This document shows positions 12,334-64,000 of a stretch of 64,000 nucleotides of DNA, piece by piece. Position numbers and translations under genes: made by a program. Where the stretch lies: positions 2,046,001 through 2,110,000 of the forward strand of contig NZ_CP127295.1 of assembly GCF_030285665.1 (NCBI RefSeq), in the 5' to 3' direction. Position 1 is the stretch's first letter. Every line of letters starts with the position of its first letter. The DNA comes from Amycolatopsis mongoliensis (GTDB taxonomy: Bacteria; Actinomycetota; Actinomycetes; Mycobacteriales; Pseudonocardiaceae). A model generated the notes under the pieces. The model was not told the origin of the DNA. It saw only the letters and a list, made by a program, of their open reading frames with translations, and did not search any database.

Positions 12334-13952
<1,619 letters not shown>

Positions 13953-14037
13953 CGCTCTCCCTTGAACCAGGTGCGGGGACGGCGGTACCACCAGGCGGGG
14001 ACCGGGGCGGTGTTTTGCGCCGTTTGCGAAGACGTTA

Positions 14038-14053
14038 CGTGGTCCAGACCAAT
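14038..14053. promoter_or_regulatory. DasR-like operator (dre), proximal
   Basis: Core TGGTCCAGACCA at 14040-14051, a 12-bp perfect palindrome. It matches the Streptomyces DasR consensus core TGGTCTAGACCA at 11 of 12 positions. DasR is the GntR-family GlcNAc-responsive repressor of chitinase genes. The site is 88 bp upstream of the chitinase ATG. Confidence 0.75.
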
Positions 14054-14116
14054 TAAGGAAGAACAACCACGGAGAGTGCTGAACGGCGGGTGACCAGCTG
14101 AGACGTTGGCGTGTTC

Positions 14117-14132
14117 ACTGGTCCAGTCCAGT
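14117..14132. promoter_or_regulatory. DasR-like operator (dre), distal
   Basis: ACTGGTCCAGTCCAGT matches the 16-bp dre consensus (ACTGGTCTAGACCAGT) at 14 positions. It lies 65 bp further from the chitinase start than the proximal site. Paired sites at this spacing are what one expects of a DasR-controlled promoter. Confidence 0.65.
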
Positions 14133-14140
14133 TACGCAAA

Positions 14141-14174
14141 GCAGCCGAGCCCGGCGGGTACCGGGCTCGGCTGC
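14141..14174. terminator. Hairpin terminator downstream of the Q/P-rich protein gene
   Basis: Perfect 14-bp stem, GCAGCCGAGCCCGG (14141-14154) and its complement (14161-14174), with a 6-base loop. It follows the stop of the leftward gene at 14187, separating it from the chitinase promoter. Confidence 0.75.
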
Positions 14175-14186
14175 GGGTGGTTCGGA

Positions 14187-14723
14187 TCAGTGCTGCGGGG
14201 GCGGTCCCCAGCCGGGATGCGGCGGGTACTGCTGCTGCGGCTGGTTGCCCGCGGGCCCGGCCTGCTGAGGCTGGCTCCACTGCTGGTTCCCGGTCGCGGG
14301 CTGCTGCGGCTGGTATCCCCCAGGCCCCTGCGGCTGGTTCCACGCCGCCTGCTGCGGCTGGTACCCGGTCTGCTGCGGCTGGTTCCACCCGGGCCCGGCC
14401 TGCCCGGCCGCCGCCGGCGTCCCCTCGCCGGGCTTCTTCCGCCGGTTCCGGATCCCGGTCCACAGGCTCTTGGCCCCGAAGACGACGATGAGCGCCCCGC
14501 CCCCCATCGCGGCCCACGTCCCGGCCTTGTCGGAGCTCTGCTGCTCGTCGACCGACTTGCGGCCGGTCTCCGCACCCGTCGAAGAGGAGCTCACACACTC
14601 GTCGCCGGACTGCATGATCCGCCCGCCACAGCGGACGGTCGAGTCGCCGAGCTTGCTGAACCCACCGGCGATCGCGGCGATCCCGAACAGCACGACCAGG
14701 CTCGAGATGATGATGCGTTTCAT
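14187..14723 (-). CDS. Hypothetical two-segment membrane protein with Gln/Pro-rich tail
   Basis: 178 residues. N-terminal hydrophobic helix (MKRIIISSLVVLFGIAAIA), an extracytoplasmic loop with two Cys (RCGG, DECVSS), a second hydrophobic segment (MGGGALIVVFGAKSL), a basic patch (RNRRKKPG), and about 80 residues of low complexity built from repeats of G-Y-Q-P-Q-Q and W-N-Q-P-Q. Function unknown. The start chosen has GAGGGGAA about 10 bases upstream. The tail could bind partners or be disordered; it is not an enzyme signature. Confidence 0.7.
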   Translation of the reverse strand: MKRIIISSLVVLFGIAAIAGGFSKLGDSTVRCGGRIMQSGDECVSSSSTGAETGRKSVDEQQSSDKAGTWAAMGGGALIVVFGAKSLWTGIRNRRKKPGEGTPAAAGQAGPGWNQPQQTGYQPQQAAWNQPQGPGGYQPQQPATGNQQWSQPQQAGPAGNQPQQQYPPHPGWGPPPQH

Positions 14724-14798
14724 GTGCGTGTTCCCCTCGTCCTCGACATCGAGGTGATCACGCGCGAAGGGGCCGAACGGCTTAGTGGTGACACAAAG

Positions 14799-14830
14799 AA
14801 AGAAGCCCCCTCGCGAGAGGGGGCTTCTTT
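14799..14830. terminator. Hairpin terminator after the tRNA-Arg gene
   Basis: Perfect 14-bp stem AAAGAAGCCCCCTC / its complement with loop GCGA, ending in TTCTTTG. It lies just past the 3' end of the leftward tRNA genes, so it most likely terminates their transcript. Confidence 0.8.
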
Positions 14831-14847
14831 GCTGTCTCAACCAGACG

Positions 14848-14921
14848 TGCGCCCGAAGGGATTCGAACCCCTGACCTTCTGATCCGTAGTCAGATGCTCT
14901 ATCCAGCTGAGCTACGGGCGC
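14848..14921 (-). tRNA. tRNA-Arg (ACG)
   Basis: 74 nt. Acceptor arms GCGCCCG (14915-14921, read leftward) and CGGGCGC pair fully. D-arm GCTC...GAGC, anticodon stem TCTGA/TCAGA around loop CTACGGA, giving anticodon ACG, and T-arm with GGTTCGAATCC are all present. CCA is not encoded. Confidence 0.95.
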
Positions 14922-14967
14922 GTGTTCAGTTGTTCTCTAACCTAGCACCCGGCGAACCGGGTACCAG

Positions 14968-15057
14968 CGGAGGCTCCGGGATTTGAACCCGGGAGGGGGG
15001 GTTACCCCCAACCGCATTAGCAGTGCGGCGCCATAGACCAGACTAGGCGAAGCCTCC
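14968..15057 (-). tRNA. tRNA-Ser (GCT)
   Basis: 90 nt with the long variable arm of type II tRNAs (GGGGGTAACCCCC). Acceptor GGAGGCT/AGCCTCC, anticodon loop CTGCTAA giving GCT, T-arm GGGTTCAAATCC. Located 46 bp upstream of tRNA-Arg in the same direction, so the two are probably co-transcribed. Confidence 0.95.
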
Positions 15058-15122
15058 TGGGCCCAACGACCACTGCTCAGATAGGTTACACACCCCCCGA
15101 TCACCCTCCGACAGCACCCCCC

Positions 15123-16838
15123 TCACGCCCGCTGCAGCAGCCTGAGCAGGCGCGGAGAGCGTCCGCCGAGGCCTTCCGCCTCGAACGTCGCGATGCCCAC
15201 GCGGGGCAGTTCGCGGACGCCCGGGTACACCAGATAGCGGGGCACCCAGCGGGGCTGGAACTTCGCGTTGAACTTGTACAGCGTCTCGATCTGGATCCAG
15301 CGCGAAAAGAAGTGGAGCACCTTCGCCGCCGTCTTGGCCACCGGGCCCGCGCCGATGCGCTGGCCCTGTTCCATCAGCGCCCGGAACGCGGCGAAGTTGA
15401 GCGACACCTGCTCGACGCCGTGCCGCCCCGCCGCCAGCAGGAGCTCGGAAATCATCAGCTCGTTGACGCCGTTGTCGGCCGTGCGGTCGCGGCGCATGAC
15501 GTCCAGCGACAACCCCTTCTCGCCCCACGGCACGAACTGGAGCACGCCGCGCACCCGCCCGCCCTGCTCGGCCGTCACCAGCACCGAACCCGCGTCGCCC
15601 ATGCGGCCCAGCGCCATCGAGAACCCGCGCTCGGTGTCCGTGCCGCGCCAGTTCGCGGCCAGCGTCACCAGCTCGGCGAGTTCCCCGGGACGCAGGTCCT
15701 CGGCCCGGCGGACCAGCACCTTGTAACCCGCGCGCTTCGTGCGGGCCGCGGCCTGGCGGACGCCGCGCATGACGCGTCCGTCCAAGGTGAACCCTTCGGC
15801 GTCGACGACCGCTTCGTCGCCGATCTCCAGGACCTCCAGGCCGAACCGGGCCCAGACCGTCGCGCCGAGTTCCGAGACACCCATCGCCGCGGGAACCCAG
15901 CCGTTGCGGCGGCAGACCTCCAGGTACTCCTCGATCGCACCCGGCCACGCCTCGTGGTCGCCGAGCGGGTCGGCCGAGCACAGCGCGACCCCGGCGATCA
16001 CGCGGTAGGTGACCGCGGCCTTGCCCGTCTTCGAGAACACCGCGAACTTGTCCCGCCGCAGCGCGAAGTAGCCGAGCGAGTCCCGCTCGCCGTGCTCGTC
16101 CAGCAGCTTGCGCAGGCGCGCGACCTCGTCGTCGGACAGCCGGGGCGCCGGCTCGGCCGAGCGCAGCAGGAAGTACGCCGAGACCAGGATCGCGGCGAGC
16201 CCGAACAGCAGGCCGACGGCCGCGGTCATGTCCTCCAGCCACATCTGGTGGAACACGGCGGGCCCGCTGGCCCCGACCAGCGCGAGCGCGGACTCCGCCA
16301 GCCGGTCCGGGAAGCTCATCGGCTCCAGCACCGCCCGGGACGCCACGGACAGCAGGATGACGTTGATCACGAACCCGGCCAGCGCCAGCTGCAGGAACAC
16401 GCGCACCGCGCGCCAGCGCCCGACCACCGGGTCCGGCTTCGCGACGAAGTAGCGCCGGCTCGCGATCAGGCCCACCAGCAGCACGACCGAGACCAGCCCG
16501 GCGCCGAAGACGTGCCGGAGCCCGATGTGCGACACCGTGAGCAGCACCGTCGCGCCGATCGCCAGCTGCCAGGCGCGGCGCTTGCGGCGGCGCAGGCCCG
16601 CGGCCAGCAGCACGAGCAGCACGCCCGTGACCAGCGCGACGGTCGCCGCGGCGACCGTCGCCTCCTGCGGCAGCTCGAGCCACTCCGACAGGTGCCCGCG
16701 CAGGTTCCGGCGCCCGGCGGGCACCAGGACCGACACGAGCGTCATCAGTCCCGCCAGCCGGGTCACCCAGGTGATCACCCCCACGGTGGTGGCTCCCGCC
16801 ACCCGCCAGGTGGTCTGCGCGCGTGTCCCCGTCACCAC
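15123..16838 (-). CDS. MprF/LysX-type phosphatidylglycerol lysyltransferase domain protein (DUF2156)
   Basis: 571 residues from a GTG; the start is uncertain because two GTG codons are adjacent and no clear ribosome site is seen. About six to seven membrane segments fill the first 220 residues. A cytoplasmic DUF2156 (GNAT-like) domain follows, with DKFAVFSKTGKAAVTYRVI, ADPLGDHEAW, WRGTDTERGFSMALGRMGD and NFAAFRALMEQGQ. In mycobacterial LysX this half is fused to a lysyl-tRNA synthetase that supplies Lys-tRNA; that half is missing here and is not the next gene. It therefore probably uses charged tRNA from the housekeeping synthetase. Aminoacylated lipids lower surface charge and sensitivity to cationic peptides. 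Confidence 0.82.
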   Translation of the reverse strand: MVTGTRAQTTWRVAGATTVGVITWVTRLAGLMTLVSVLVPAGRRNLRGHLSEWLELPQEATVAAATVALVTGVLLVLLAAGLRRRKRRAWQLAIGATVLLTVSHIGLRHVFGAGLVSVVLLVGLIASRRYFVAKPDPVVGRWRAVRVFLQLALAGFVINVILLSVASRAVLEPMSFPDRLAESALALVGASGPAVFHQMWLEDMTAAVGLLFGLAAILVSAYFLLRSAEPAPRLSDDEVARLRKLLDEHGERDSLGYFALRRDKFAVFSKTGKAAVTYRVIAGVALCSADPLGDHEAWPGAIEEYLEVCRRNGWVPAAMGVSELGATVWARFGLEVLEIGDEAVVDAEGFTLDGRVMRGVRQAAARTKRAGYKVLVRRAEDLRPGELAELVTLAANWRGTDTERGFSMALGRMGDAGSVLVTAEQGGRVRGVLQFVPWGEKGLSLDVMRRDRTADNGVNELMISELLLAAGRHGVEQVSLNFAAFRALMEQGQRIGAGPVAKTAAKVLHFFSRWIQIETLYKFNAKFQPRWVPRYLVYPGVRELPRVGIATFEAEGLGGRSPRLLRLLQRA

Positions 16839-16875
16839 CTGTGCAACCCGTTGTGGACGATCATGCTTCCCCCAT

Positions 16876-18855
16876 CTACCCTCCGGCGAGCTCCACGAAC
16901 GGCGTCAGCGCCGCGGGGTTCGCCAGCGCGTCGCGGCTGACGGCCCGGTCAGGAGCCACACCGGCGAGGATCTTCTTCACCGGTACCTCACACTTCTTAC
17001 CGTTCAAGGTACGAGGAATCTCCTGAACCACTACGAACCGATCGGGTACATGCCGGGGTGACAGTGCGCTACGGAGCTCCTTCTTCAGCCGGGGCTCGAC
17101 GTCTTCGAGCTCGACGCCGTCGGCGAGCACCACGAAACAGATCAGCTGCCCGTCCTCGTTCCCGGCCGCCGAAGTGTCCACGACCAGGGAATCCACGACC
17201 TCGTCGTAGCCCTCGACGACCCGGTAGAACTCCGCCGTGCCCATCCGGACGCCGCCGCGGTTGAGCGTCGAGTCGCTGCGGCCGTAGATCACCGCCGAGC
17301 CGCGGCCGGTGACCCGGATCCAGTCGCCGTGGCGCCACCTCCCCGGGTACATCTCGAAGTAGGCCTCACGCAGGCGCGAGCCGTCGGGGTCGTTCCAGAA
17401 GAACACCGGCATCGACGGCATCGGCTTGGTGATGACCAGCTCGCCGACCTGCTCGACGACTGCGTTGCCGGCCTCGTCGAACGCGTTGACCGCGGCGCCC
17501 AGCGCCGGGCAGGACAGCTCCCCCAGCCAGACCGGCACGTCGGGCGCCGACGCGACGAACGCCGCGCACAGGTCCGTGCCGCCGGAGACCGAGCAGATCT
17601 GCACCTTCCTCCCGACCTCGTCCACGATCCACCGGAAGCCCTCGACGCTCAGCGGCGCCCCGGTCGAGCCGAGCGCGCGCAACGCCGTCAGGTCGTAGCG
17701 CTCGGCGGGCTTGATGCCCGCCTTCAGGCAGCTCTGGATGAACGGCGCCGACGTCCCGAAGTACGTGACGCGGTGCTGCTCGGCCAGGTGCCAGAGCGCG
17801 TTGAGGTCCGGGTAACCGGGGCTGCCGTCGTAGAGCACGATCGTCGTGCCGACCAGCAGGCCGGAGATGAGGAAGTTCCACATCATCCAGCCGGTGGTGC
17901 TGAACCAGAAGAACCGGTCGCCCGGACCGAGGTCGGTCTGCAGCGCGAGGGCCTTCAGGTGCTCCAGCGTGATGCCGCCGTGGCCGTGCACGATGCCCTT
18001 GGGCAGGCCGGTGGTGCCCGACGAGTAGAGCACCCACAGCGGGTGCGCGAACTCGACCGGCTCGAACAGCAGCGGCGCGCCCTCGTGCTTCGCGAGCAGT
18101 TCGGCCCAGTCGAGCGCGCCGTCCATCCGGCCTTCGCCGACGTACTGGACGAGCACGGTCGCGGCCAGCGACGGCAGCTTCGCCTGCAGGTCGGCGAGCG
18201 TCGTCCGGATGTCGAACCGGCGGCCGTTGTACGCGTAGGCGTTGACCGCGAAGAGCACCTTCGGCTCGATTTGCACGAAGCGGTCCGCGACCGCGCGGAC
18301 GCCGAAGTCCGGCGAGCACGACGACCAGATCGCCCCGATGCTCGCCGCGGCGAGGAACGCGACCAGCGTCTGCGGGCAGTTCGGGGCCAGTGCGACGACG
18401 CGGTCGCCCTTGCCGACGCCCAGCTCGAGCAGCCCCGCCCGCGCGGCGGCGACCTGCGCGCGAAGCTCGCCGTAGGTCAGGTGGTCCGCGAAGCCGTCTT
18501 CGCGGTGGAAGATCACCGCCGTCTCGTCGTCACCCTTCGCGGCGCCCGCGACGCCGGGGGTGAGCGCGTGCTCGGCGTAGTTCAGCGTGGCGCCCTCGAA
18601 CCAGACGGCGTCGGGCATCTCGCCGGAGAGCACCGCACCCGGCTGGTCGTGCCAGCGGACGCCGAGGAAGTCCGCGACCGCCGTCCAGAAGTCCGGACCG
18701 CGCTCGACCGAGAACTCCCAGAGCGAGTGGTAGTCGTCCACCTCGACGCCGCGTTCGGCGCGCAGCCACTGGCGGAAGGCTTCGATCTTGGTGTCGGCAA
18801 CGTGGCTCGGCTCAGGGCGCCAGAGCACTTCGGGGGCGTCGGCGGTGTGCGTCAC
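16876..18855 (-). CDS. Acetoacetyl-CoA synthetase
   Basis: 659 residues from a GTG with GAAGGA upstream. ANL-superfamily ligase that activates acetoacetate with ATP and CoA. Motifs: VLYSSGTTGLPKGIVHGHGG (AMP-binding P-loop), WFSTTGWMMWNFLISGLLVG, GGTDLCAAF, W(R)HGDWI, YGRSDSTLNRGGVRMGT and the C-terminal lysine motif in PRTLNGKKCEVPVKK. The phrases STTGWMMWN and SGGTDLC and the length separate it from acetyl-CoA synthetase. Lies 49 bp downstream of a dienelactone-hydrolase-like gene in the same direction, probably one operon. Confidence 0.9.
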   Translation of the reverse strand: MTHTADAPEVLWRPEPSHVADTKIEAFRQWLRAERGVEVDDYHSLWEFSVERGPDFWTAVADFLGVRWHDQPGAVLSGEMPDAVWFEGATLNYAEHALTPGVAGAAKGDDETAVIFHREDGFADHLTYGELRAQVAAARAGLLELGVGKGDRVVALAPNCPQTLVAFLAAASIGAIWSSCSPDFGVRAVADRFVQIEPKVLFAVNAYAYNGRRFDIRTTLADLQAKLPSLAATVLVQYVGEGRMDGALDWAELLAKHEGAPLLFEPVEFAHPLWVLYSSGTTGLPKGIVHGHGGITLEHLKALALQTDLGPGDRFFWFSTTGWMMWNFLISGLLVGTTIVLYDGSPGYPDLNALWHLAEQHRVTYFGTSAPFIQSCLKAGIKPAERYDLTALRALGSTGAPLSVEGFRWIVDEVGRKVQICSVSGGTDLCAAFVASAPDVPVWLGELSCPALGAAVNAFDEAGNAVVEQVGELVITKPMPSMPVFFWNDPDGSRLREAYFEMYPGRWRHGDWIRVTGRGSAVIYGRSDSTLNRGGVRMGTAEFYRVVEGYDEVVDSLVVDTSAAGNEDGQLICFVVLADGVELEDVEPRLKKELRSALSPRHVPDRFVVVQEIPRTLNGKKCEVPVKKILAGVAPDRAVSRDALANPAALTPFVELAGG

Positions 18856-54481: not shown

Positions 54482-55636
54482 TCAGGGCCGCAGGGTGCGG
54501 AAGAACTCCCGGATGTCGCCGATCAGCGCGTCCGGTTCCTCCAGGGCCGGGAAGTGGCCGCCGCGCGGGAACTCCGTCCAGTGGACGATCTTGTCCGTTC
54601 GCTCTGCCAGGGTCCGGATCGGCAGGCCGATGTCGTCCGGGAAGACCGCCACCCCCGTCGGGACCGTGTTCGGTGCCGGCGGCGCTCCCCAGCCGCCCGT
54701 CAAGGCCGCGTACAGGCGCGCCGAGGAGTTGGCCGTTTCGGTGAACCAGTAGATCGACACGTCCGCCAGCAGGTCGTCGCGGTCGATCAGGTCGGCCGAG
54801 GTGTTCGAGAACGACCGGAACTTCTCCGCGATCCAGGCCAGCTGCCCCGCCGGCGAGTCGTGCAGGCCGTACGCAAGCGTTTGCGGCTTCGTCGCCTGGA
54901 GGATCGCGTAGCCCGTTCCCGACGCCGAAAACGCCTGCCCCTTCTCCAGCGACCGGCGTCCGGCGGCGAGTTCGTCACCCGCCAGCTCGGCGAGGTCCGA
55001 CGGCGTCCGCGCCACCGCCGACGGCAGCATCGTCACGTGGATCCCCAGCACCCGCGCGGGGAACTGGACCGCCAGCTCCCGCGAGATGGTCGCGCCCCAG
55101 TCACCGCCGTGGGCGCCGAACCGCTCGTAGCCCAGGCGGGTCATCAGCTCCGCGAACGCCCGCGCGATCCGCTCCGGACCCCAGTCCGGCGTCGGTGTCG
55201 GGCCCGAGAAGCCGTAACCCGGGATCGACGGCACCACCACCGTCAGCGCGTCCGCCGGGTCGCCGCCGTACGCGCGTGGATCCGTCAGCGGCCCGATGAC
55301 GTCCAGGAACTCGACGATCGAGCCCGGCCAGCCGTGCGTCAGCAGCACCGGCGGCGCGGCCGGCTCCGGGGAGACCACGTGCAGGAAGTGCACGTTCGTC
55401 CCGTCGATCACCGTCGCGAACTGCGGAAACGCGTTGATCCGCTCCTCCTGCGCCCGCCAGTCGAAGCTCGTCCGCCAGTACTCGGCCAGCTCACGCACGT
55501 AGTCGACGGGCGCCCCGAGCCGCCAGCCGGCGTCGGCGGGCTGGTCGGGCCAGCGCGTGTTCGCCAGCCGCGCGCGGAGATCGTCGAGAGCGGCCTGCGG
55601 GACGTCGATGCGGAACGGCGTGATCTCTGAGGTCAT
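54482..55636 (-). CDS. Epoxide hydrolase (alpha/beta-hydrolase)
   Basis: 384 residues. N-terminal EHN domain (TPFRIDVPQAALDDLRARLANTRWPDQP), oxyanion HGWPG (101-105), nucleophile motif GGDWG with Asp179, ring-opening Tyr region, and catalytic His in PRGGHFPALEEP near the C-terminus. Converts epoxides to diols. Its start is 3 bases after the pseG stop, so it is probably on the same transcript, although no sugar-related role is apparent. Confidence 0.9.
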   Translation of the reverse strand: MTSEITPFRIDVPQAALDDLRARLANTRWPDQPADAGWRLGAPVDYVRELAEYWRTSFDWRAQEERINAFPQFATVIDGTNVHFLHVVSPEPAAPPVLLTHGWPGSIVEFLDVIGPLTDPRAYGGDPADALTVVVPSIPGYGFSGPTPTPDWGPERIARAFAELMTRLGYERFGAHGGDWGATISRELAVQFPARVLGIHVTMLPSAVARTPSDLAELAGDELAAGRRSLEKGQAFSASGTGYAILQATKPQTLAYGLHDSPAGQLAWIAEKFRSFSNTSADLIDRDDLLADVSIYWFTETANSSARLYAALTGGWGAPPAPNTVPTGVAVFPDDIGLPIRTLAERTDKIVHWTEFPRGGHFPALEEPDALIGDIREFFRTLRP

Positions 55637-55639
55637 GCC

Positions 55640-56620
55640 TCAACGATAGGAAGCACCGAGGACAGATCCGGTCCTCGATTCCACCTGATCCAGCACCCGG
55701 TCCACCCCACGGCCGTCCACTGTGGCCGACGCCGTCTCCGACAACCGCCGCCGGAGTGCCGGGTCGGACAACAGCGAACGCAGGACCGCCGTCACCTCGG
55801 GCAGCCGCTCCGCCAGGGACTCCGCCGGGCCGAGTCCCGCCGCCAAGCCGAGCTCCAAAGCGGCCCGGTAGCCCGCTTCCTGGTTGTCCACCAGCAGCAC
55901 CGCCGCCGTCGGGACGCCGAGGCAGCACAGCTCCACGAAGGTCACTCCGGACGCGCTCACCGCGACGTCCGTCGTCGCGAACAGCTCCAGCAGCGCAGGA
56001 CTCGGCGCCGCGACGCGGATCGACTGGTCCGGCCGCAGGTCCGGCAACGCAGGTTCACCGCGCACCAGCACATCCGCCGTGAAGGGCAACTCCGTGTCGC
56101 GAAGCGCGCGAAGCAGCAACCCTGCTGTCGGCGCCCGCTCGTCGCTGCCACCGAGGGCCAGCGTGACGTGCAGCGGCGGCCCGGAAAGCACCCGGCGCGT
56201 ACCCCGCACGACGTCCCGAAGCGGCGCGTAAGCGATCCCCCGCAGCAAGACGTCCGAGCCGTCGTCGGGCCGGGGCGAAGGCGCGAAGCCCGAGTCCACG
56301 ACGATGTCCGCGGGCCGGCGCCCGAACACGTCGTCCTCGATCGAGACGAGCAGCGCACCCGCCGCGTTGACCTCTTTCCGCAGGTCACCGAGGCCGTAGT
56401 GGTCGACGACCACCGCGTCGAACCCCGTCGCGTCAAAAGACCCGACCCGCGAGACGCCCAGCTCGTCGAACCGCGAAGCGAGCCACTCCGCGTTCTCGAC
56501 GCGGCCGGAAAACGCCACCCGCCAGCCCCGCGCGACCGCCCGCTCGGCGTAGGCGACCATCCGCGCGATGTGCCCGGCGCCGATCGACGCCGACGCGTCC
56601 GCGCGCAGGAGCAGCCTCAC
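55640..56620 (-). CDS. pseG: PseG-like UDP-sugar hydrolase
   Basis: 326 residues from a GTG. GT-B-like fold with RADASASIGAGHIARM at 7-21, in which His17 is the catalytic base of PseG, then VVDHYGLG and EDDVFGRRPADIVVDSG. PseG removes UDP from the 2,4-diacetamido-trideoxy-altrose intermediate of pseudaminic acid. SpsG of Bacillus is the same family. GTGA overlap with the SpsF-like gene upstream. Confidence 0.85.
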   Translation of the reverse strand: MRLLLRADASASIGAGHIARMVAYAERAVARGWRVAFSGRVENAEWLASRFDELGVSRVGSFDATGFDAVVVDHYGLGDLRKEVNAAGALLVSIEDDVFGRRPADIVVDSGFAPSPRPDDGSDVLLRGIAYAPLRDVVRGTRRVLSGPPLHVTLALGGSDERAPTAGLLLRALRDTELPFTADVLVRGEPALPDLRPDQSIRVAAPSPALLELFATTDVAVSASGVTFVELCCLGVPTAAVLLVDNQEAGYRAALELGLAAGLGPAESLAERLPEVTAVLRSLLSDPALRRRLSETASATVDGRGVDRVLDQVESRTGSVLGASYR

Positions 56621-57363
56621 GAACCGACCTTCTTCTGCTCGACGTGCGCGTTGAGCGCCACCAGATCCGGGCGCGACCGCAGCAGCGCGACCACCGCCCG
56701 CCAGTCGCCGACGCCGTCGCCGAGTTCGCTCACCACCGCGGAAAGCAGTTCCCAGTCCTCCGTCGTGTCCAACGTCACCCGCAGGTCGTCGGCCGCGGGG
56801 CTCACCACGATTCCGGTGCACGAATAGCGCGAAGGGTCCGAATAGATGCCCGAGGTGACGTGCTCGCGGTCCGCCCCGGTGGCCGTCGAGACCTGCTCCA
56901 GCAGCACGGCAGCCCGCACCAGCTCGGCGTCGAAGCCGCGGGGCAGCGTCCGGACCAGCGTCGTGCTCACGTAGTCCAGCGACGGCTGGGCCCGCCAGAG
57001 CGACGCGAGCTGGCCGATCAGCGCCGGGTCCAGCAGCGGGCAGTCGGCGGTGAGCCTGATCACGGCGTCGGCGGGATACTCGCGCAGCGCCACCGCGAAC
57101 CGGCCGAGCACGTCGTCGAGGGGACCCCGGACCACCGCGGCGCCGCAGCGGGCCGCCTCCGCCGCGACATCGTCGTCCGAAGCGTCCGAAGACGTCGCGA
57201 CCACCACCTGGTCGACGCCGGGTGCGGCCGCCGCGGCCCGGACGACCCAGCCCAGCACACTGCGGCCGCCGAGCGGGCGCAGCACCTTGCCGGGGAGCCG
57301 GGTCGACGACGACCGGGCCTGGATGACGGCGTTGACCACGGGCGCTGCACGCATGGGTGACAT
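56617..57363 (-). CDS. SpsF-like cytidylyltransferase
   Basis: 248 residues. Nucleotidyltransferase N-terminus NAVIQARSSSTRLPGKVLRPLGG, then VVATSSDASDD, RLTADCPLLDP and EHVTSGIY. This is the SpsF/CMP-KDO-synthetase-like family (COG1861), unlike the classical PseF. In Bacillus sps operons SpsF accompanies PseG and PseI homologues, so it probably makes the CMP-nonulosonic acid here. The ATG at 57354 is an alternative start. Divergent from pseB, 41 bp away. Confidence 0.82.
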   Translation of the reverse strand: MSPMRAAPVVNAVIQARSSSTRLPGKVLRPLGGRSVLGWVVRAAAAAPGVDQVVVATSSDASDDDVAAEAARCGAAVVRGPLDDVLGRFAVALREYPADAVIRLTADCPLLDPALIGQLASLWRAQPSLDYVSTTLVRTLPRGFDAELVRAAVLLEQVSTATGADREHVTSGIYSDPSRYSCTGIVVSPAADDLRVTLDTTEDWELLSAVVSELGDGVGDWRAVVALLRSRPDLVALNAHVEQKKVGS

Positions 57364-57404
57364 GATGGCCGACGCACACCGTCACCCGAACGCGGAGGTC
57401 AACG

Positions 57405-58388
57405 ATGTCCGAGCTGGATGGCTCCAGCATCCTGCTCACCGGCGGGACCGGTTCCTTCGGCAAGGCGTTCATCGCGCACGCGCTGGCCGAGCTGAACCCG
57501 AGCCGGCTGGTCGTGCTCTCCCGCGACGAGCTGAAGCAGTACGAAACGCGCCAGCTGTTCGGCGACGACCCGCGCCTGCGCTGGTTCATCGGTGACATCC
57601 GCGACCGCCGCCGGCTCGAGCGCGCCATGCACGGCGTCGACTACGTCGTGCACGCCGCCGCGCTCAAGCAGGTCGACACCGGTGAGTACAACCCGTTCGA
57701 ATTCGTCCAGACCAACGTCATGGGCTCCCAGAACGTGATCGAGGCTTCGATCGACACGGGCGTCAAGAAGGTCGTCGCGCTGTCGACCGACAAGGCGTCC
57801 AGCCCGATCAACCTCTACGGCGCCACCAAGCTGTGCGCCGACCGGATGTTCATCAGCGGCAACCACTACGCGGCCGCGCACGTGACGCGCTTCTCCGTCG
57901 TCCGCTACGGCAACGTGATGGGCTCGCGCGGCAGCGTCATCCCGTTCTTCCGCAAGCTGGCCGAGCAGGGCGAGTCGCTGCCGATCACGCACAAGGACAT
58001 GACCCGGTTCTGGATCACGCTCCCCCAGGCCGTGCGGTTCGTCGTCGACTCCTTCGACCAGATGCACGGTGGCGAGCTGTACGTGCCGCGCATCCCGAGC
58101 ATGCGGCTGGTCGACCTGGCCCAGGCGATCGCGCCGGGCAGCGAGATGCACGAGGTCGGCATCCGCCCGGGCGAGAAGCTGCACGAGGAGATGATCGCCC
58201 CCGACGACGCGCGCCGGACGGTCCAGCTCAAGGACCGCTACGTCGTCCAGCCCCACCTCGCCGGCTGGGGCTTCCAGCCGCCGGCCGACGGCACGCCGAT
58301 GCCGGAGGGCTTCGCCTACCGCTCGGACACCAACGACCTCTGGCTGAACGGCGAGGAGCTGCGCGAACTGGTCGAGCAGCATGCCTGA
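57405..58388 (+). CDS. pseB: UDP-GlcNAc 4,6-dehydratase (inverting), PseB
   Basis: 327 residues. Extended SDR with TGGTGSFG (12-19), D129-K130 and YGATK (138-142). HAAALKQVD and NPFEFVQTNVMGSQN are PseB/FlaA1 hallmarks. First step of pseudaminic acid synthesis: removes water at C4-C6 and inverts C5. Overlaps pseC by 8 bp. Confidence 0.93.
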   Translation: MSELDGSSILLTGGTGSFGKAFIAHALAELNPSRLVVLSRDELKQYETRQLFGDDPRLRWFIGDIRDRRRLERAMHGVDYVVHAAALKQVDTGEYNPFEFVQTNVMGSQNVIEASIDTGVKKVVALSTDKASSPINLYGATKLCADRMFISGNHYAAAHVTRFSVVRYGNVMGSRGSVIPFFRKLAEQGESLPITHKDMTRFWITLPQAVRFVVDSFDQMHGGELYVPRIPSMRLVDLAQAIAPGSEMHEVGIRPGEKLHEEMIAPDDARRTVQLKDRYVVQPHLAGWGFQPPADGTPMPEGFAYRSDTNDLWLNGEELRELVEQHA

Positions 58389-59550
58389 GTCCGATGCCGC
58401 CTCCGCGGGAAAGAGTGCGTCGGCGGGCTTCCTCCCCTACGGACGCCAGTCCATCAGCGAAGAGGACATCCAGGCCGTCGTCGGCGTGCTGCGCGGTGAC
58501 TGGCTGACGACCGGCCCCGCGGTCCAGCAGTTCGAGAACGACCTCGCGGCGCACACCGGCGGGGCGCCCGCGGTGGCCGTCACCTCGGGTACGGCCGCCC
58601 TGCACGTCGCCTACGCGGCGGCCGGCATCAAGGCCGGTGACGAGGTCGTCGCGTCGCCGATGACGTTCGTCGCCACCGCCGCGACCGCCGCGCTGCACGG
58701 CGCGAAGGTGGTCTTCGCCGACGTCGAACCGGACACCGGGAACCTTTCGGTCGAGGCAGCCGCGGCCGCGGTGACCGACCGCACGAAGGTCGTCGCCGCC
58801 GTCGACTACGCCGGCCACCCGGCCGAGCTGGACGCGCTGGGCGAGGTCGCGCACAACGCGGGCGCGCTGCTCCTCGAGGACGCGGCGCACTCCGTCGGCG
58901 GCTCCTGGCAGGGCCGACCGGTGGGCTCGATCGCCGACCTGACGACGTTCTCCTTCTTCCCGACGAAGAACCTCACGACGGCCGAAGGCGGCGCCGTCGT
59001 CACGCCCGACGAGAACCTCCTGGACCGGGCGCGGAAGTTCCGCAACCACGGCCTGGTCCGCGACCGCGCCGAGCAGCGCTACCCGGACGAGGGCGGCTGG
59101 CACCAGGAGGTGCACGAGTTCGGCCTGAACTACCGCCTGCCGGACGTCCTGTGCGCGCTCGGCAGCAGCCAGCTCACCCGGCTCGCGGAGTTCAAGAAGC
59201 GCCGCGCCGAGATCCACGCCCGCTACAACGCGGCCCTGGCCGACCTCGACGGCGTGGCGACGCCGCCGAGCCGCCCGGGCGCCGACCCGGTGTGGCACCT
59301 CTACCCGCTGCGCGTGCTGGAGGGCCGCCGCAAGGCGCTGTTCGAGCACCTGCGCGGGGTCGGCATCGGCGTCCAGGTGAACTACATCCCGGCGTACTGG
59401 CACCCGGTGTTCGAGGACCTCGGCTACCGGCGCGGGCTCTGCCCGAACGCCGAGGCGTACTACGAGCAGGAGCTCTCGCTGCCGCTGTTCCCGTCGCTGA
59501 CGGACGCCGACGTCGACCGCGTCGTCGACGCCGTGCACGCGTTCTTCTAG
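58381..59550 (+). CDS. pseC: PseC aminotransferase (DegT/DnrJ/EryC1 family)
   Basis: 389 residues. PYGRQSISEEDIQAVVGVLRGDWLTTGP at the N-terminus, VTSGTAALH, EDAAHSVGG, and SFFPTKNLTTAEGG with PLP Lys196. Transfers the C4 amino group in the second step after PseB. The stop overlaps that of convergent pseI by 4 bp. Confidence 0.93.
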   Translation: MPESDAASAGKSASAGFLPYGRQSISEEDIQAVVGVLRGDWLTTGPAVQQFENDLAAHTGGAPAVAVTSGTAALHVAYAAAGIKAGDEVVASPMTFVATAATAALHGAKVVFADVEPDTGNLSVEAAAAAVTDRTKVVAAVDYAGHPAELDALGEVAHNAGALLLEDAAHSVGGSWQGRPVGSIADLTTFSFFPTKNLTTAEGGAVVTPDENLLDRARKFRNHGLVRDRAEQRYPDEGGWHQEVHEFGLNYRLPDVLCALGSSQLTRLAEFKKRRAEIHARYNAALADLDGVATPPSRPGADPVWHLYPLRVLEGRRKALFEHLRGVGIGVQVNYIPAYWHPVFEDLGYRRGLCPNAEAYYEQELSLPLFPSLTDADVDRVVDAVHAFF

Positions 59551-60596
59551 ATCAGGTCCCAGGTCAGGGGCGTGCCCTTCGCGGCGTCGACGCGGAAGGT
59601 GCGCCCCACGACCTTGGTGATCTCGGCCGGGGCCAGGCCGCCGGCGGGCCGGATCGACCGGACGTTCGCCGGCGTCACCTCGTCGCCCGCACGCACGTCC
59701 TCGACGACGTAGAGGGACCGGCGCAGCCGCAGGCCCTCCTTCTCGCTCTCCCGCGGGCCCAGCACCGGCTCACCCAGCGCTTCCCAGGCCCGGTGCGTCT
59801 CGGTGACCAGCGCGGCCAGTTCGGCGGGCTCCAGCGAGAACTCGGAGTCGACGCCGCCGTCGGCCCTGGCCAGCGTGACGTGCTTCTCGATGGCCACCGC
59901 GCCCAGCGCGACGGCCGCGACCGGCGCCCCGATGCCCGGCGTGTGGTCGGACAGGCCCACCAGCGTCTGCGTGAGGCCGGCCAGCAGCGGCAGGCCGCGC
60001 AGGTTGCTCTCGGACGGCGACGCCGGGTAGCTCGCCGTGCATCCGAGCACGATCAGCTGGTCGTTGCCCGCGGCCCGCGCGGTGCGCACCGCGGCGTCGA
60101 TCTCCGCGACGTTCGCCATGCCGGTGGAGATGACCAGCGGCTTCCCCGTGCGAGCGCACAGCTCGACCAGCGGCAGGTCGACGATCTCGGACGACGCGAT
60201 CTTGTACGCCGGCGCGTCCAGGGACTCCAGCAGCTCGACCGCGGTCGGGTCGAAGGGGCTGGAGAAGATCTCCAGACCGCGAGCCCGGGCGCGTTCGAAG
60301 AGCGGCTCGTGCCAGTCCCAGGGCGTGTGGGCCTTTTCGTACAGTTTGTACAGGTTTTCCCCGCCCCAAAGGGAGTGCGAGTCCCCGATGCGGAACGCCG
60401 GGGTGTCGACGTCGATGGTGATCGTGTCCGGGCGGTAGGTCTGCAGCTTGACCGCCTGCGCGCCGGTCTCCGCGATCGCGTCGATGATCTGCAGCGCCCG
60501 GTCGAGGTCGCCGTTGTGGTTGCCGGACATCTCGGCGATCACGAACGGCGCGTGGCCCGGACCGATCAGGTGCGCGCCGAACCGGATGTCGTGCAT
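59547..60596 (-). CDS. pseI: Pseudaminic acid synthase, PseI
   Basis: 349 residues. NeuB-family TIM barrel: FVIAEMSGNHNGDLDRALQII, AVKLQTYRPDTITID, EIFSSPFDPTAVELLE, YKIASSEIVDLPLVE, IEKHVTLARADGGVDSEFSLEP, with a C-terminal antifreeze/SAF domain (about 285-345, RSLYVVEDVRAGDEV). Condenses phosphoenolpyruvate with the 6-deoxy-altrose derivative to give the nine-carbon acid. Transcribed with the GNAT gene. Confidence 0.93.
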   Translation of the reverse strand: MHDIRFGAHLIGPGHAPFVIAEMSGNHNGDLDRALQIIDAIAETGAQAVKLQTYRPDTITIDVDTPAFRIGDSHSLWGGENLYKLYEKAHTPWDWHEPLFERARARGLEIFSSPFDPTAVELLESLDAPAYKIASSEIVDLPLVELCARTGKPLVISTGMANVAEIDAAVRTARAAGNDQLIVLGCTASYPASPSESNLRGLPLLAGLTQTLVGLSDHTPGIGAPVAAVALGAVAIEKHVTLARADGGVDSEFSLEPAELAALVTETHRAWEALGEPVLGPRESEKEGLRLRRSLYVVEDVRAGDEVTPANVRSIRPAGGLAPAEITKVVGRTFRVDAAKGTPLTWDLI

Positions 60597-60622
60597 GGTG
60601 CCTCCCCGGGGTGGACTGCGGG

Positions 60623-61075
60623 TCAGCTCAGAGTCTTGCGCAGCTGCCGGAAGCCGCTGACGGCAGGCGCGGCTTCGGTGTAGCCGGCGTGGTCGAACAG
60701 CTTCGCCGACGCGGCGTTGTCCTGGTGGACGGCGGCGATCACGACCCGGATTCCGAGGCGCTCCCGCGCCGCCCGCTCCCCCTCGGCGAGCACCGCGCCG
60801 GAGCGGCCACGGCCGCGGTGCTCCGGCGCGAGGGTGATGCTGACCTCCCAGCCGTCGCCGTCCCGGCGGTCGAAGCGGACGGTGCCCACCGGCGCGTCCT
60901 CGTGCTCCACGACGAGCAGCAGCCGGTCGGGGTCGGCGAGCACTCCGCGCAGCCAGGCGAGGTGCTCGTCCAGGGAGACCACCGCCGTCGACCGCGACGA
61001 CCGGCGGGTCCGCGGGTCGTTGCGCCAGCCCAGCAGCAGCTCGGCGTCGGCGTCGGTGGCCTCCCGGGCGCGCAA
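60623..61075 (-). CDS. pseH: GNAT acetyltransferase, probable PseH
   Basis: 150 residues from a TTG. GNAT fold: LLGWRNDPRTRR, VGTVRFDRRDG, acetyl-CoA loop LAPEHRGRGRSGAVL, and AAVHQDNAASAKLFDHAGY. Position between pseI and the coiled-coil gene suggests the N4-acetylation step. The start is weak (TTG, one base after the previous stop), and another start inside the upstream gene cannot be excluded. Confidence 0.75.
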   Translation of the reverse strand: MRAREATDADAELLLGWRNDPRTRRSSRSTAVVSLDEHLAWLRGVLADPDRLLLVVEHEDAPVGTVRFDRRDGDGWEVSITLAPEHRGRGRSGAVLAEGERAARERLGIRVVIAAVHQDNAASAKLFDHAGYTEAAPAVSGFRQLRKTLS

Positions 61076-61076
61076 G

Positions 61077-61511
61077 CTACTGGGCGACGGGCTGCTCGGC
61101 CCGCTCCTCGACGCGGCGGAGCCGGTCCTCGTAGCGGGAGATGCCGGCGAGCCGGACGCGGATCTGGGCGTGCTGGCGCTGGATCTCCTCGATCAGCGTG
61201 CGGGCCTCGGCGTTCTGGGCGCTGTCGGTGCTGGGCACCAGCGCCATCGACTCGCGCAGCGTCTCCAGCCGGCCTTCCTGCGCGGCCACGTGCGGGATCA
61301 GGCGGTCGAGCTCGGCGCGGGTCCAGCGCAGGTCGCCGCGAGCCTGCTCGAGGTTGTGCTCGGCGTTGTCCAGCCGGCGCCGGTGGTCGGCGGTGGCGTG
61401 CTCGAGGTTGTTGACGCGCTCGGCCAGGCCGCGGGTGCGGTCGTCGACCCGGAAGTCGATGAGCCGGGCGATCCGGTCGACGAGGCCTCTGCCGAGTTTC
61501 TGCACTGCCAT
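61077..61511 (-). CDS. Coiled-coil protein of the nonulosonic acid cluster
   Basis: 144 residues, almost all helical, with heptad repeats from about 30 to 140 (LAERVNNLEHATADHRRRLDNAEHNLEQARGDL and on). No known domain. GGACC/AAGG precedes the ATG. Located between the GT29-like gene and pseH in one direction. Coiled-coil proteins of this size sometimes pair with surface-polymer machinery; here the role is unknown. Confidence 0.7.
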   Translation of the reverse strand: MAVQKLGRGLVDRIARLIDFRVDDRTRGLAERVNNLEHATADHRRRLDNAEHNLEQARGDLRWTRAELDRLIPHVAAQEGRLETLRESMALVPSTDSAQNAEARTLIEEIQRQHAQIRVRLAGISRYEDRLRRVEERAEQPVAQ

Positions 61512-61542
61512 GGGTGGTCCTTAAGTCGGTGGGGACGCGCGT

Positions 61543-62199
61543 CTAGCGCAGGAGAGTGGTGTCACCGGTCTTGGTCCAGGACTCCAGCAGCCGCCCTTCG
61601 GCGGCGATCTGGTGTTCCGGGCCGACGATGCAGGAGTCACCGGCGGCGTGCTCCCACGAGGTCTGGTCCGGGTTGTCGATGAACGAGAACCCGGTGAGCA
61701 CGAGCTGGGCGGTCGGGAACGACGTCCGCGCGATCCAGGCGGCCAGCGTGCCGGTGGTCGACCACGTCGGCTCGTCGCGGGTCGGCAGGCCCAGCGCGTC
61801 CGACAACGGCAGCACCACCTCGCGGTTCGACACCGGGACCGCACCGAGGTCGGCGGGCCACCAGCCCGGCACGTCCTCCGGCTCCCAGTGCATCCGGCCG
61901 GGCTCGACCAGCAGGTAGAGCCGTTTCCGGTAGTCCTGGAAGACGTACGGGGTGGCACGGATCGCCCGGTTGAACACCACGACGTGCGTCCGGGAGCCGA
62001 CGACCTCCTCGCCCGGCTTGTCGACGACGAAGCCGTTGACGCGGATCACGAGGTCGCACGCGTCGATCGCCTTCGCGCGCTGGGGGTCGGGTGGGAGCGG
62101 CTGGTTTCCGACGACGGCCACCGAACGGGGGTCCGGCCGGTCGGCGTAGGCCGCGAGCAGGTTGACCATCAAGCTCGCCGCGCCGAGAGCAGCAGTCAT
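61543..62199 (-). CDS. GT29 sialyltransferase-like protein
   Basis: 218 residues. Has features of the sialyltransferase motifs of family GT29: an L-like motif (VAVVGN, 27-32; IDACDLVIRVNGF, 45-57; VGSRTHVVVFNRA), an S-like motif (TWSTTGTLAAWIA), and a VS-like His-Glu pair in GPEHQIAAEGRLLESW near the C-terminus. GT29 enzymes use CMP-nonulosonic acids, which fits its cluster. The N-terminal start is unclear (GTG at 62229 or ATG at 62169 are options). Assignment is a motif reading, not a search. Confidence 0.6.
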   Translation of the reverse strand: MTAALGAASLMVNLLAAYADRPDPRSVAVVGNQPLPPDPQRAKAIDACDLVIRVNGFVVDKPGEEVVGSRTHVVVFNRAIRATPYVFQDYRKRLYLLVEPGRMHWEPEDVPGWWPADLGAVPVSNREVVLPLSDALGLPTRDEPTWSTTGTLAAWIARTSFPTAQLVLTGFSFIDNPDQTSWEHAAGDSCIVGPEHQIAAEGRLLESWTKTGDTTLLR

Positions 62200-62313
62200 A
62201 AGCCGAGAAAGTACCAGCACGCAGGACACACCCCGCCGCGTAGCGGTCCCTAACCTCTACCACACGGGCGGGGTGGGCCGAACGCCGCTCATCCCATCGG
62301 TACCCTCGTCCAC

Positions 62314-63267
62314 GTGCATGCCACCAGCACGGTTCAGGCCGCGAACTCACCCGTAGCGACGTCGGTGCCCCCGCCGTCGGACAGCAAGACGTTCGCGCGC
62401 GCCTTCGCCGACATCAAGGCCGGTTTCTCCGCCCGCGAGCTGTGGGGTCACCTCGGCTGGCAGGACATCAAGCAGCGGTACCGCCGGTCGGTGATCGGGC
62501 CGTTCTGGATCACCATCAGCCAGGCGGTCATCGCCCTCGGGCTCGGGCTGCTGTACTCGCAGCTGTTCAACTCGCCGATCCAGGTGTTCCTGCCCTACCT
62601 GAGCACCGGTTTCATCCTCTGGGGCTTCATCAGCGGCTGCCTCGCCGAGGGCATGGAGACGTTCATCGCCAACGAGGGGCTGATCAAGCAGCTCCCGGCG
62701 CCGCTGAGCGTCTACATGCTGCGCACGGTGTGGCGGCAGTCGCTGCTGCTGGCGCACAACATGATCGTCTACGTCGTGATCCTCGTGATCTTCTTCTCGG
62801 CGCTGGACAACAAGTACTCGCTGGGCTCGCCGGACGGCATCTGCCACCCGAACCTGTACTGCCACCCGGGTCTGAGCTGGAACATCCTGCTCGCCATCCC
62901 CGGCTTCTTCCTGCTCGCGCTGAACGCGGGCTGGGTGACGCTGCTGCTGGGCATCATCTCGACCCGCTTCCGCGACATCCCGCAGGTCATCAACTCGCTG
63001 ATCCAGCTGCTGTTCTACGGCACGCCGATCGTCTGGCCGGTCGACCAGCTGCTGTCCGGCGGGACGCGCTCGGGTATCTCGTGGGTGTTGCCGATCATCC
63101 AGGCGAACCCGCTCTACCACTTCATGCAGGTGGTCCGGGCGCCGCTGATCGGCCAGCAGTTCACGCCGGGCAACTGGATCGTGGTCGGCTCCATCACCAT
63201 CGTCGGCTGGGCGCTCGCGCTCGTCGCGATGCGCAACTACCGTGCCCGCGTCTCCTACTGGGTGTGA
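62314..63267 (+). CDS. Galactan/polysaccharide ABC exporter permease, Wzm-type
   Basis: 317 residues from a GTG. ABC-2 exporter permease: a cytoplasmic amphipathic start (DSKTFARAFADIKAGFSARELWGHLGWQDIKQRYRRSVIGPFWI), six membrane segments from about 75, and FYGTPIVWPVDQLL. Corresponds to Rv3783 (RfbD), the permease that exports lipid-linked galactan in mycobacteria. Start of a transcript with the ATPase gene 5 bases further on. Confidence 0.88.
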   Translation: MHATSTVQAANSPVATSVPPPSDSKTFARAFADIKAGFSARELWGHLGWQDIKQRYRRSVIGPFWITISQAVIALGLGLLYSQLFNSPIQVFLPYLSTGFILWGFISGCLAEGMETFIANEGLIKQLPAPLSVYMLRTVWRQSLLLAHNMIVYVVILVIFFSALDNKYSLGSPDGICHPNLYCHPGLSWNILLAIPGFFLLALNAGWVTLLLGIISTRFRDIPQVINSLIQLLFYGTPIVWPVDQLLSGGTRSGISWVLPIIQANPLYHFMQVVRAPLIGQQFTPGNWIVVGSITIVGWALALVAMRNYRARVSYWV

Positions 63268-63272
63268 CAAAC

Positions 63273-64000
63273 ATGGTCAGCATTGACGTCCAGAACGCCT
63301 ACGTCGACTTCCCGATCTTCGACGCCAAGACCCGGTCGATGAAGAAGAAGGTCCTCGGCAAGGTCGGCGGCAAGATCGGTACCGACACCAAGGTGCCGAT
63401 CATCGAGGCCCTGCACGACGTGACCTTGAACCTCCGCGAAGGTGACCGGGTCGGCCTGGTCGGGCACAACGGCGCGGGCAAGTCCACGCTGCTGCGGCTG
63501 CTCGCCGGGATCTACGAGCCGACCCGCGGTTCCTCGCGGATCCACGGGAAGATCGCGCCGGTCTTCGACCTCGGCATCGGCATGGACCCGGAGATCTCGG
63601 GCGAGGAGAACATCATCATCCGCGGCCTCTTCCTCGGCATGAGCGCCAAGGAGATGGAGAAGCGGGTCGACGACATCGCGGAGTTCACCGAGCTCGGCGA
63701 CTACCTGCAGATGCCGCTGCGGACGTACTCGACCGGCATGCGCGTGCGGCTCGCGCTGGGTGTCGTCACCTCGATCGACCCCGAGATCCTGATCCTCGAC
63801 GAGGGCATCGGCGCGGTCGACGCGGCGTTCCTCAACAAGGCGCGCGACCGCCTCAAGGACCTGGTCAAGCGCTCGGGCATCCTGGTGTTCGCCAGCCACG
63901 CCGACGAGTTCCTCTTCGAGCTCTGCGACTCGGCGCTCTGGATGGACGAAGGGCACATCAAGCAGCAGGGCTCGCTGCGGGACGTCCTCACCGGGTACAA
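63273..64000 (+). CDS. Galactan/polysaccharide ABC exporter ATPase, Wzt-type (cut by window edge)
   Basis: 242 residues are visible; the gene runs beyond the window. Walker A GHNGAGKST, YSTGMRVRLALG signature (lacking the LSGGQ form, typical for this family), ILDEGIGAVD Walker B, and SHADEF switch region. Resembles Rv3781 (RfbE). In mycobacteria the galactofuranosyltransferase gene glfT1 is nearby; it would be expected to the right of the window. Confidence 0.88.
   Translation, partial: MVSIDVQNAYVDFPIFDAKTRSMKKKVLGKVGGKIGTDTKVPIIEALHDVTLNLREGDRVGLVGHNGAGKSTLLRLLAGIYEPTRGSSRIHGKIAPVFDLGIGMDPEISGEENIIIRGLFLGMSAKEMEKRVDDIAEFTELGDYLQMPLRTYSTGMRVRLALGVVTSIDPEILILDEGIGAVDAAFLNKARDRLKDLVKRSGILVFASHADEFLFELCDSALWMDEGHIKQQGSLRDVLTGY

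Follow-up and report, generated by a model that had tools for sequence, protein, structure and literature searches.

A nonulosonic acid gene cassette with a GT29-like protein at the galactan export locus of Amycolatopsis mongoliensis and its relatives

In Amycolatopsis mongoliensis, a cassette of nonulosonic acid genes lies between the Bpa gene and the Wzm-Wzt exporter genes, within a stretch of 64,000 nucleotides (nt) of contig NZ_CP127295.1 (the window) that belongs to a 10.8-Mb genome in one contig. The cassette encodes enzymes for a pseudaminic-type acid (Pse), a GT29-like (sialyltransferase-type) protein and a coiled-coil partner protein (CC), and it probably works in the cytoplasm as an exchangeable module, placing a nonulosonic acid on lipid-linked galactan ahead of its export. 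The nonulosonate set spans positions 55640-62229; all named genes are intact open reading frames (ORFs), and only those for PseB and PseC are on the plus strand, the other set genes being on the minus strand. Family scores below refer to NCBIfam and Pfam models with their own cut-offs.

55640..56620, minus strand: PseG-like UDP-sugar hydrolase (TIGR03590, 91 bits, under the cut-off of 153.55)
56617..57363, minus strand: SpsF/PseF-like cytidylyltransferase, presumed CMP-Pse synthetase (PF02348, 89.7 bits; cut-off 22.6)
57405..58388, plus strand: PseB, UDP-GlcNAc 4,6-dehydratase (inverting) (TIGR03589, 483.5 bits; cut-off 407.75)
58381..59550, plus strand: PseC aminotransferase (TIGR03588, 424.9 bits; cut-off 423.5)
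59547..60596, minus strand: PseI, pseudaminic acid synthase with NeuB and SAF domains (TIGR03586, 450.3 bits; cut-off 340.25)
60623..61075, minus strand: GNAT acetyltransferase, PseH-like (TIGR03585, 53.1 bits, under the cut-off of 93.1)
61077..61511, minus strand: CC, coiled-coil partner protein (recognized by alignment, adjacency to GT29 and structure model)
61543..62229, minus strand: GT29-like protein, presumed CMP-nonulosonate transferase (PF00777, 23.7 bits; cut-off 23.0)
62314..63267, plus strand: Wzm, galactan ABC exporter permease, presumed exit route (NF050109 'galactan export permease', 427 bits; cut-off 380)
63264..64000, plus strand, extending to about 64085 beyond the window: Wzt, exporter ATPase of 274 amino acids (aa) (L236:3264-4085)
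54482..55636, minus strand: epoxide hydrolase-like gene, not a member of the system

In the proposed mechanism, PseB, PseC, the GNAT protein (in the PseH role), PseG and PseI would produce a pseudaminic-type nonulosonic acid, which the SpsF-like enzyme would activate with CTP to CMP-Pse. The GT29-like enzyme and CC would transfer this sugar in the cytoplasm, presumably as one residue rather than many, onto lipid-linked galactan made by GlfT1 and GlfT2, and Wzm/Wzt would afterwards export the decorated galactan. In relatives, the same GT29/CC pair would be loaded with Neu- or Kdn-type donors, or a pyruvyl transferase would take the slot instead.

Donor synthesis by the block is well supported. 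The preliminary description had named these genes between Bpa and Wzm and regarded them as sufficient on paper for a CMP-pseudaminic-type pathway with a GT29-type transferase, and both points are borne out by the intact ORFs and family matches, with PseB, PseC, PseI and Wzm over NCBIfam cut-offs. Known bacterial counterparts are the route to pseudaminic acid through PseB-C-H-G-I-F and, in Bacillus, the sps set; the block has PseB, PseC and PseI and an SpsF-type cytidylyltransferase in common with them, but sits with a wall-galactan exporter rather than with flagellar or spore genes. The PseF model gives the cytidylyltransferase 30.4 bits, under its cut-off of 205.7. The PseH role of the GNAT protein is supported by the occurrence of PseG and GNAT as a single ORF of 446-589 aa in eight relatives' loci (L070, L073, L074, L077, L079, L082, L083 and L096). 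Six other loci of close Amycolatopsis (L076, L078, L095, L139, L140 and L143) have a GNAT beside PseI that is only 29-39% alike to the window protein, the remaining Pse genes being highly similar, which hints that the sugar's acyl groups differ. A second nonulosonate pathway in the genome was considered and rejected: the other PF03102 match (30 bits; a 355-aa ORF at L238:9167-10234, about 4600166-4601233 of G000:C1) resembles, by eye, a DAHP synthase and lies in a biosynthetic cluster.

The identity of the 61543..62229 product as a GT29 protein is likewise well supported, and its activity as a CMP-nonulosonate transferase is presumed. The sialylmotif residue patterns used for comparison are those commonly associated with the family. 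The window protein has the sialyltransferase fold and carries sialylmotifs L, S, III and VS (motif names as in the available part of PMC5811610). Among 34 sequences the invariant residues are V40 G41 N42, D56 D59 V61 R63, T158 T159 G160 T161, H194 and H206-x4-E211, and N42, R63, T159, G160, H194, H206 and E211 stay invariant among 73; at position 65 the Pse type has Asn and the Neu/Kdn type Thr (34 sequences), and columns 87 (N/H), 203 (G/T) and 208 (I/L) track donor type best. The protein shares its fold and sialylmotif-like invariant residues with the ST3Gal, ST6Gal, ST6GalNAc and ST8Sia sialyltransferases, and the lack of a transmembrane domain is shared with proteobacterial GT29 sequences as described in the part of PMC5811610 seen. 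That part places bacterial GT29 in alpha-, gamma- and epsilon-proteobacteria and states that trees gave no function prediction in bacteria, whereas the family here is actinobacterial and tied to Pse, Neu or Kdn cassettes, a coiled-coil partner and, mostly, the galactan exporter.

Co-occurrence was assessed in a sample of 249 genomes of the family, in which PseI/NeuB was searched with TIGR03586 at E up to 1e-30. PseI/NeuB was found in 71 genomes (41 over the cut-off), Wzm in 247 and GT29 in 61, and 58 have both GT29 and NeuB (Fisher p 6e-40, uncorrected for descent). The three GT29-positive genomes without NeuB (G173, G196 and G216) are 82-91% complete, so that a NeuB may have been overlooked. 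Their GT29 copies are eroded: Asn42 and Asn65 are replaced in all three, His194 and His206 are missing in G196, and the copies of G173 and G216 do not align past residue 178. Motif-eroded GT29 beside an intact CC gene was noted at L234:9659-10378, L235 and L237, all in genomes without a NeuB match. The closest relatives of the window GT29 come from Amycolatopsis sp. NBRC 101858 and A. pretoriensis. A 396-genome phylum sample returned the own genome as the sole GT29 match; since scattered members do occur in Geodermatophilaceae, Nocardioidaceae and Microbacteriaceae, this miss is not equal to absence.

The surroundings of the block are those of a galactan export locus, because Wzt is followed by a GlfT1 homologue (L236:4085-4993; 87% to the GlfT1 of L104, which is itself over the NF050113 cut-off) and, about 9 kb beyond Wzt, by a GlfT2-type polymerase (L236:12959-14875). 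The preliminary description had proposed comparing the Bpa-Wzm interval across the family. Of 73 matched NeuB/PseI places, loci were taken around 72, that is, all except the window's own, and Wzm lies 163-5484 nt from NeuB in 51 of them, more than expected by chance. Wzm is absent from the examined stretch in the other 21, where the contig is in some cases short. Many genera share the order Bpa, PseG, cytidylyltransferase, PseB, PseC, PseI, GNAT, CC, GT29, Wzm, Wzt. Counts of GT29 loci refer to the 80 named loci out of 90 found: NeuB is present in 72, Wzm in 63 and both in 57, and CC adjoins GT29 in every one, within 320 nt on the same strand. In Sciscionella, GT29-CC sits with Wzm-Wzt-GlfT1 (L169/L170) whereas the sugar genes sit at Bpa (L100/L101), and in four Geodermatophilus loci GT29-CC has two GlfT2-like genes as neighbours, along with Wzm, Wzt and GlfT1; these two arrangements together are the best evidence for galactan as the acceptor. 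The suggested link to the exporter recurs across genera, and it persists when the sugar is replaced.

Such replacement was traced through loci with weaker PseI scores, in which other sugar sets accompany the same GT29-CC pair. The Neu set comprises NeuC (L103:7715-8878; TIGR03568, 361 bits; cut-off 236), a NeuB of 353 bits (under the cut-off of 400) and a CMP-synthetase. In the Kdn-type set, NeuB lacks the SAF domain, and the CMP-synthetase carries a fused KdsC/KDN-9-phosphatase-like domain (L104:9754-10944) that scores under the phosphatase cut-offs. With donor labels assigned from gene families and identity thresholds, the 80 named GT29 loci comprise 47 Pse (plus two incomplete), 13 Neu, 10 Kdn and eight with none. 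For six of the last group (two loci of Sciscionella, four of Geodermatophilus) NeuB lies at another place in the genome, and the other two, L188 and L207, apparently belong to genomes G017 and G167, both NeuB-positive. The SpsF-like cytidylyltransferase is found in 47/47 complete and 0/2 incomplete Pse loci, 1/13 Neu and 0/10 Kdn loci, and the Neu-type CMP-synthetase in 13/13 Neu, 2/8 donor-less, 0/47 Pse and 0/10 Kdn loci.

Exchange is visible within a single genus, the 29 named Amycolatopsis loci being 21 Pse, 5 Neu and 3 Kdn; A. pretoriensis and A. orientalis are of Pse type and A. thermalba is of Kdn type. Between the window and the Neu-type locus of A. rifamycinica (L199), identity is 89% for Bpa, 84% for Wzm and 95% for Wzt, against 51% for GT29 and 34% for CC; the Neu strains L197, L210 and L214 show 93-97% for Wzt, 51-52% for GT29 and 32-34% for CC. 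In A. arida (L176) the sugar genes are of Neu type but the GT29 is of Pse type (74%), and a cytidylyltransferase is left over. On the GT29 tree (90 labelled of 98 rows), the division into Pse and Neu/Kdn takes four changes. On quick trees restricted to the 56 loci whose flanks are complete, this division takes two changes on the GT29 tree and seven on the Wzt+GlfT1+Wzm tree, and the three-state donor label four and nine, respectively. The donor label departs from the GT29 clade in Blastococcus, Modestobacter and A. arida.

The Bpa-Wzm slot itself was surveyed in 20 Wzm loci, 18 from genomes without GT29 and two with an eroded GT29. The gap is 92-270 nt in seven, a polysaccharide pyruvyl transferase is next to Wzm in eight, a 540-aa membrane protein stands alone in two, CC with eroded GT29 occupies two, and L226, with a gap of 1024 nt, fits none of these classes. 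Four of the pyruvyl transferases were assigned with PF04230 (L216:11204-12448, L220:9830-11065, L223:7333-8586 of G246, and L229:10327-11478) and four by profile (G054, G085, G107 and G223). All eight are situated 168-229 nt from the Wzm match and are transcribed away from it, and none of the eight genomes has GT29. The 17 sampled genomes of the window's genus divide into eight with GT29 and PseI, seven with the pyruvyl transferase at the slot and two with neither; the eighth slot pyruvyl transferase belongs to another genus code. Weaker pyruvyl-transferase homologues elsewhere coexist with GT29. Because relatives hold other acidic-sugar genes at the same place, the acidic tag of the wall polymer seems to be swappable, and Pse, Neu, Kdn and pyruvate would each bring one negative charge. 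The epoxide hydrolase, which the preliminary description had counted in the block, was rejected as a member: it occurs in slots without nonulosonate genes (L216, L217, L219 and L221) and was not found in the examined stretch of 30 of the 47 named Pse loci.

Several observations weigh against the proposed decoration of galactan. The acceptor is moderately supported and is suggested by gene neighbourhood, and the loci are related by descent and are not phylogenetically independent. Wzm is missing from the examined stretch of 17 of the 80 GT29 loci, of which eight are cut by contig ends and nine have about 9 kb visible on each side; the 17 include all Nocardioidaceae (3) and Microbacteriaceae (2) and 8/13 Geodermatophilaceae. 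GT29 is absent in 13 of the 71 NeuB-positive genomes, which complicates a simple story and points to other uses for nonulosonates in the family. These 17 loci and 13 genomes, together with the 21 Wzm-less NeuB loci, bear out in part the lack of an exporter link that the preliminary description had named as contradicting its reading. The PseG, PseH and PseF models match the block proteins below their curated cut-offs, and in one GT29 genome, G049, the contig also carries a pyruvyl-transferase homologue at a distance of about 7 kb. PF00777 is passed by the window protein by 0.7 bit only, and among six other members L194 is over the cut-off (28.1), L180 and L201 are below it and L104, L119 and L188 give no match.

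The absence of Wzm from the examined stretch in Blastococcus (except L209), Modestobacter, Nocardioidaceae, Schumannella, Actinokineospora xionganensis and Umezawaea would fit a possible, if unlikely, alternative in which the nonulosonic acid goes to another envelope glycan or glycoprotein and the Bpa-Wzm slot is a mere integration hotspot near conserved genes, as would the occupation of the slot by unrelated genes such as the epoxide hydrolase and the 540-aa membrane protein. However, in Sciscionella the transferase pair goes with Wzm-Wzt-GlfT1, apart from the sugar genes, in Geodermatophilus it accompanies GlfT2-like and exporter genes, and the alternative occupant in eight genomes is another polysaccharide-modifying family. 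It is quite improbable that the block makes a separate repeating polymer in which a nonulosonate belongs to a distinct repeat unit, as in teichulosonic acids: Kdn teichulosonic acid is known in the actinobacterium Promicromonospora (according to the part of PMC6801904 seen), but the block has the GT29-like protein as its one glycosyltransferase and includes neither a polymerase nor an exporter, and the neighbouring exporter scores as galactan type. The marginal PF00777 score, and its failure in the Neu/Kdn-type relatives L104, L119 and L188, would agree with the GT29-like protein having some other job, associated with the cassette by chance or hitchhiking. This is very unlikely, since the protein has a sialyltransferase fold, NeuB accompanies it in 58 of 61 genomes, the three exceptions having eroded motifs, and its phylogeny tracks donor type better than the flanks do.

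CC is present in 62 of the 249 genomes, namely all 61 with GT29 and G103. Its model (pLDDT 87.9, pTM 0.46) has helices at 2-91 and 98-139, the 90-residue helix measuring about 13.5 nm (computed at 1.5 A per residue) and the second having 42 residues; given the pTM of 0.46, their mutual placement is unsure. In Klebsiella, as described in the part of PMC11231755 available, a coiled-coil ruler works with a CMP-Kdo-dependent terminator and an ABC exporter, which makes a cap-and-ruler reading natural. GT29/CC would then be a galactan chain terminator, placing a CMP-nonulosonate-derived cap at the non-reducing end with CC as the ruler and the cap (Pse, Neu or Kdn) changing from species to species like a serotype, and a pyruvate cap would be added by another enzyme; this possible but rather unlikely reading would make the pair an actinobacterial equivalent of the terminators with coiled coils that act on ABC-exported O antigens. 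Like WbdD, WbbB of Klebsiella O12 and GT137 of Klebsiella O4 (from the same part of PMC11231755), it would couple a coiled coil to a terminating enzyme at a Wzm/Wzt-type exporter, and the O12 and O4 enzymes place a keto-sugar acid (Kdo) on the chain end, akin to the nonulosonate here. In contrast to those systems as covered there, transferase and coiled coil are separate genes (no CC-GT29 fusion was noticed among the loci), the fold is GT29-like rather than of GT137 or WbbB type, Wzt is without a carbohydrate-binding module, and the polymer would be galactofuran on decaprenyl-PP.

Two further observations count against the proposed decoration. No carbohydrate-binding module was found on the window Wzt, in which ABC_tran is the sole Pfam family over the cut-off, and this speaks against capping too. 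CC is intact where GT29 is eroded, and may therefore have a role of its own without transfer. A cap-reading Wzt domain was rejected, none being found across the Wzt loci compared; Wzt is at most 295 aa in 111/113 loci, and the two longer ones (L099 and L175, apparently one contig) reach 363 aa, L099 having a Gly-rich tail. For the N-terminus of CC, a membrane-binding amphipathic helix like the one described for the C-terminal part of WbdD was not supported, as 3/27 sequences, the window's included, beat 95% of composition shuffles.

An acidic decoration of actinobacterial wall galactan has a precedent in Promicromonospora, where, in the portion of PMC6801904 seen, a pyruvylated wall galactan occurs together with Kdn teichulosonic acid, a wall polymer containing a nonulosonate; that galactan is a galactopyranan with pyruvate in the repeat, Kdn is inside the repeat unit, and no gene system is described in that portion. 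Among the listed titles and abstract openings of open-licence PubMed Central papers, none was seen that connects the galactan of actinobacteria with nonulosonic acids or with a sialyltransferase, and the Pse polymer of Kribbella mentioned in the preliminary description was not found in that literature. If the proposed decoration is correct, many actinobacterial walls have a galactan with a variable, sialic acid-like acidic sugar that a GT29-type enzyme attaches ahead of export; the bacterial members of that family lacked a predicted function (PMC5811610, in the part available). Control of galactan length, on which a mycobacterial group has put forward a hypothesis that is under exploration according to the part of PMC10951656 seen, would become testable in harmless soil actinomycetes, and the terminator reading, if true, would provide a genetic handle on how that length is set. 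Nature offers sets of strains that differ at this one locus, their slots being of Pse, Neu, Kdn or pyruvyl-transferase type or empty.

Further genes were observed at these loci. The 540-aa protein (L104:6114-7733) has about ten hydrophobic segments and matches neither a Pfam nor an NCBIfam family; in Amycolatopsis it shares the slot with Kdn/Neu cassettes, and in L224 and L225 it stands alone, cassette-free. An extra GlfT2-like galactofuranosyltransferase gene adjoins Wzm in some genomes (L106:6082-7944, L201:6832-8691 and L213). Beside GT29-CC in Geodermatophilus lie genes for very large proteins with LGFP repeats (L201:10282-13170 and 13940-16954), one of which also has an amidase domain; these proteins are possibly wall-binding partners.

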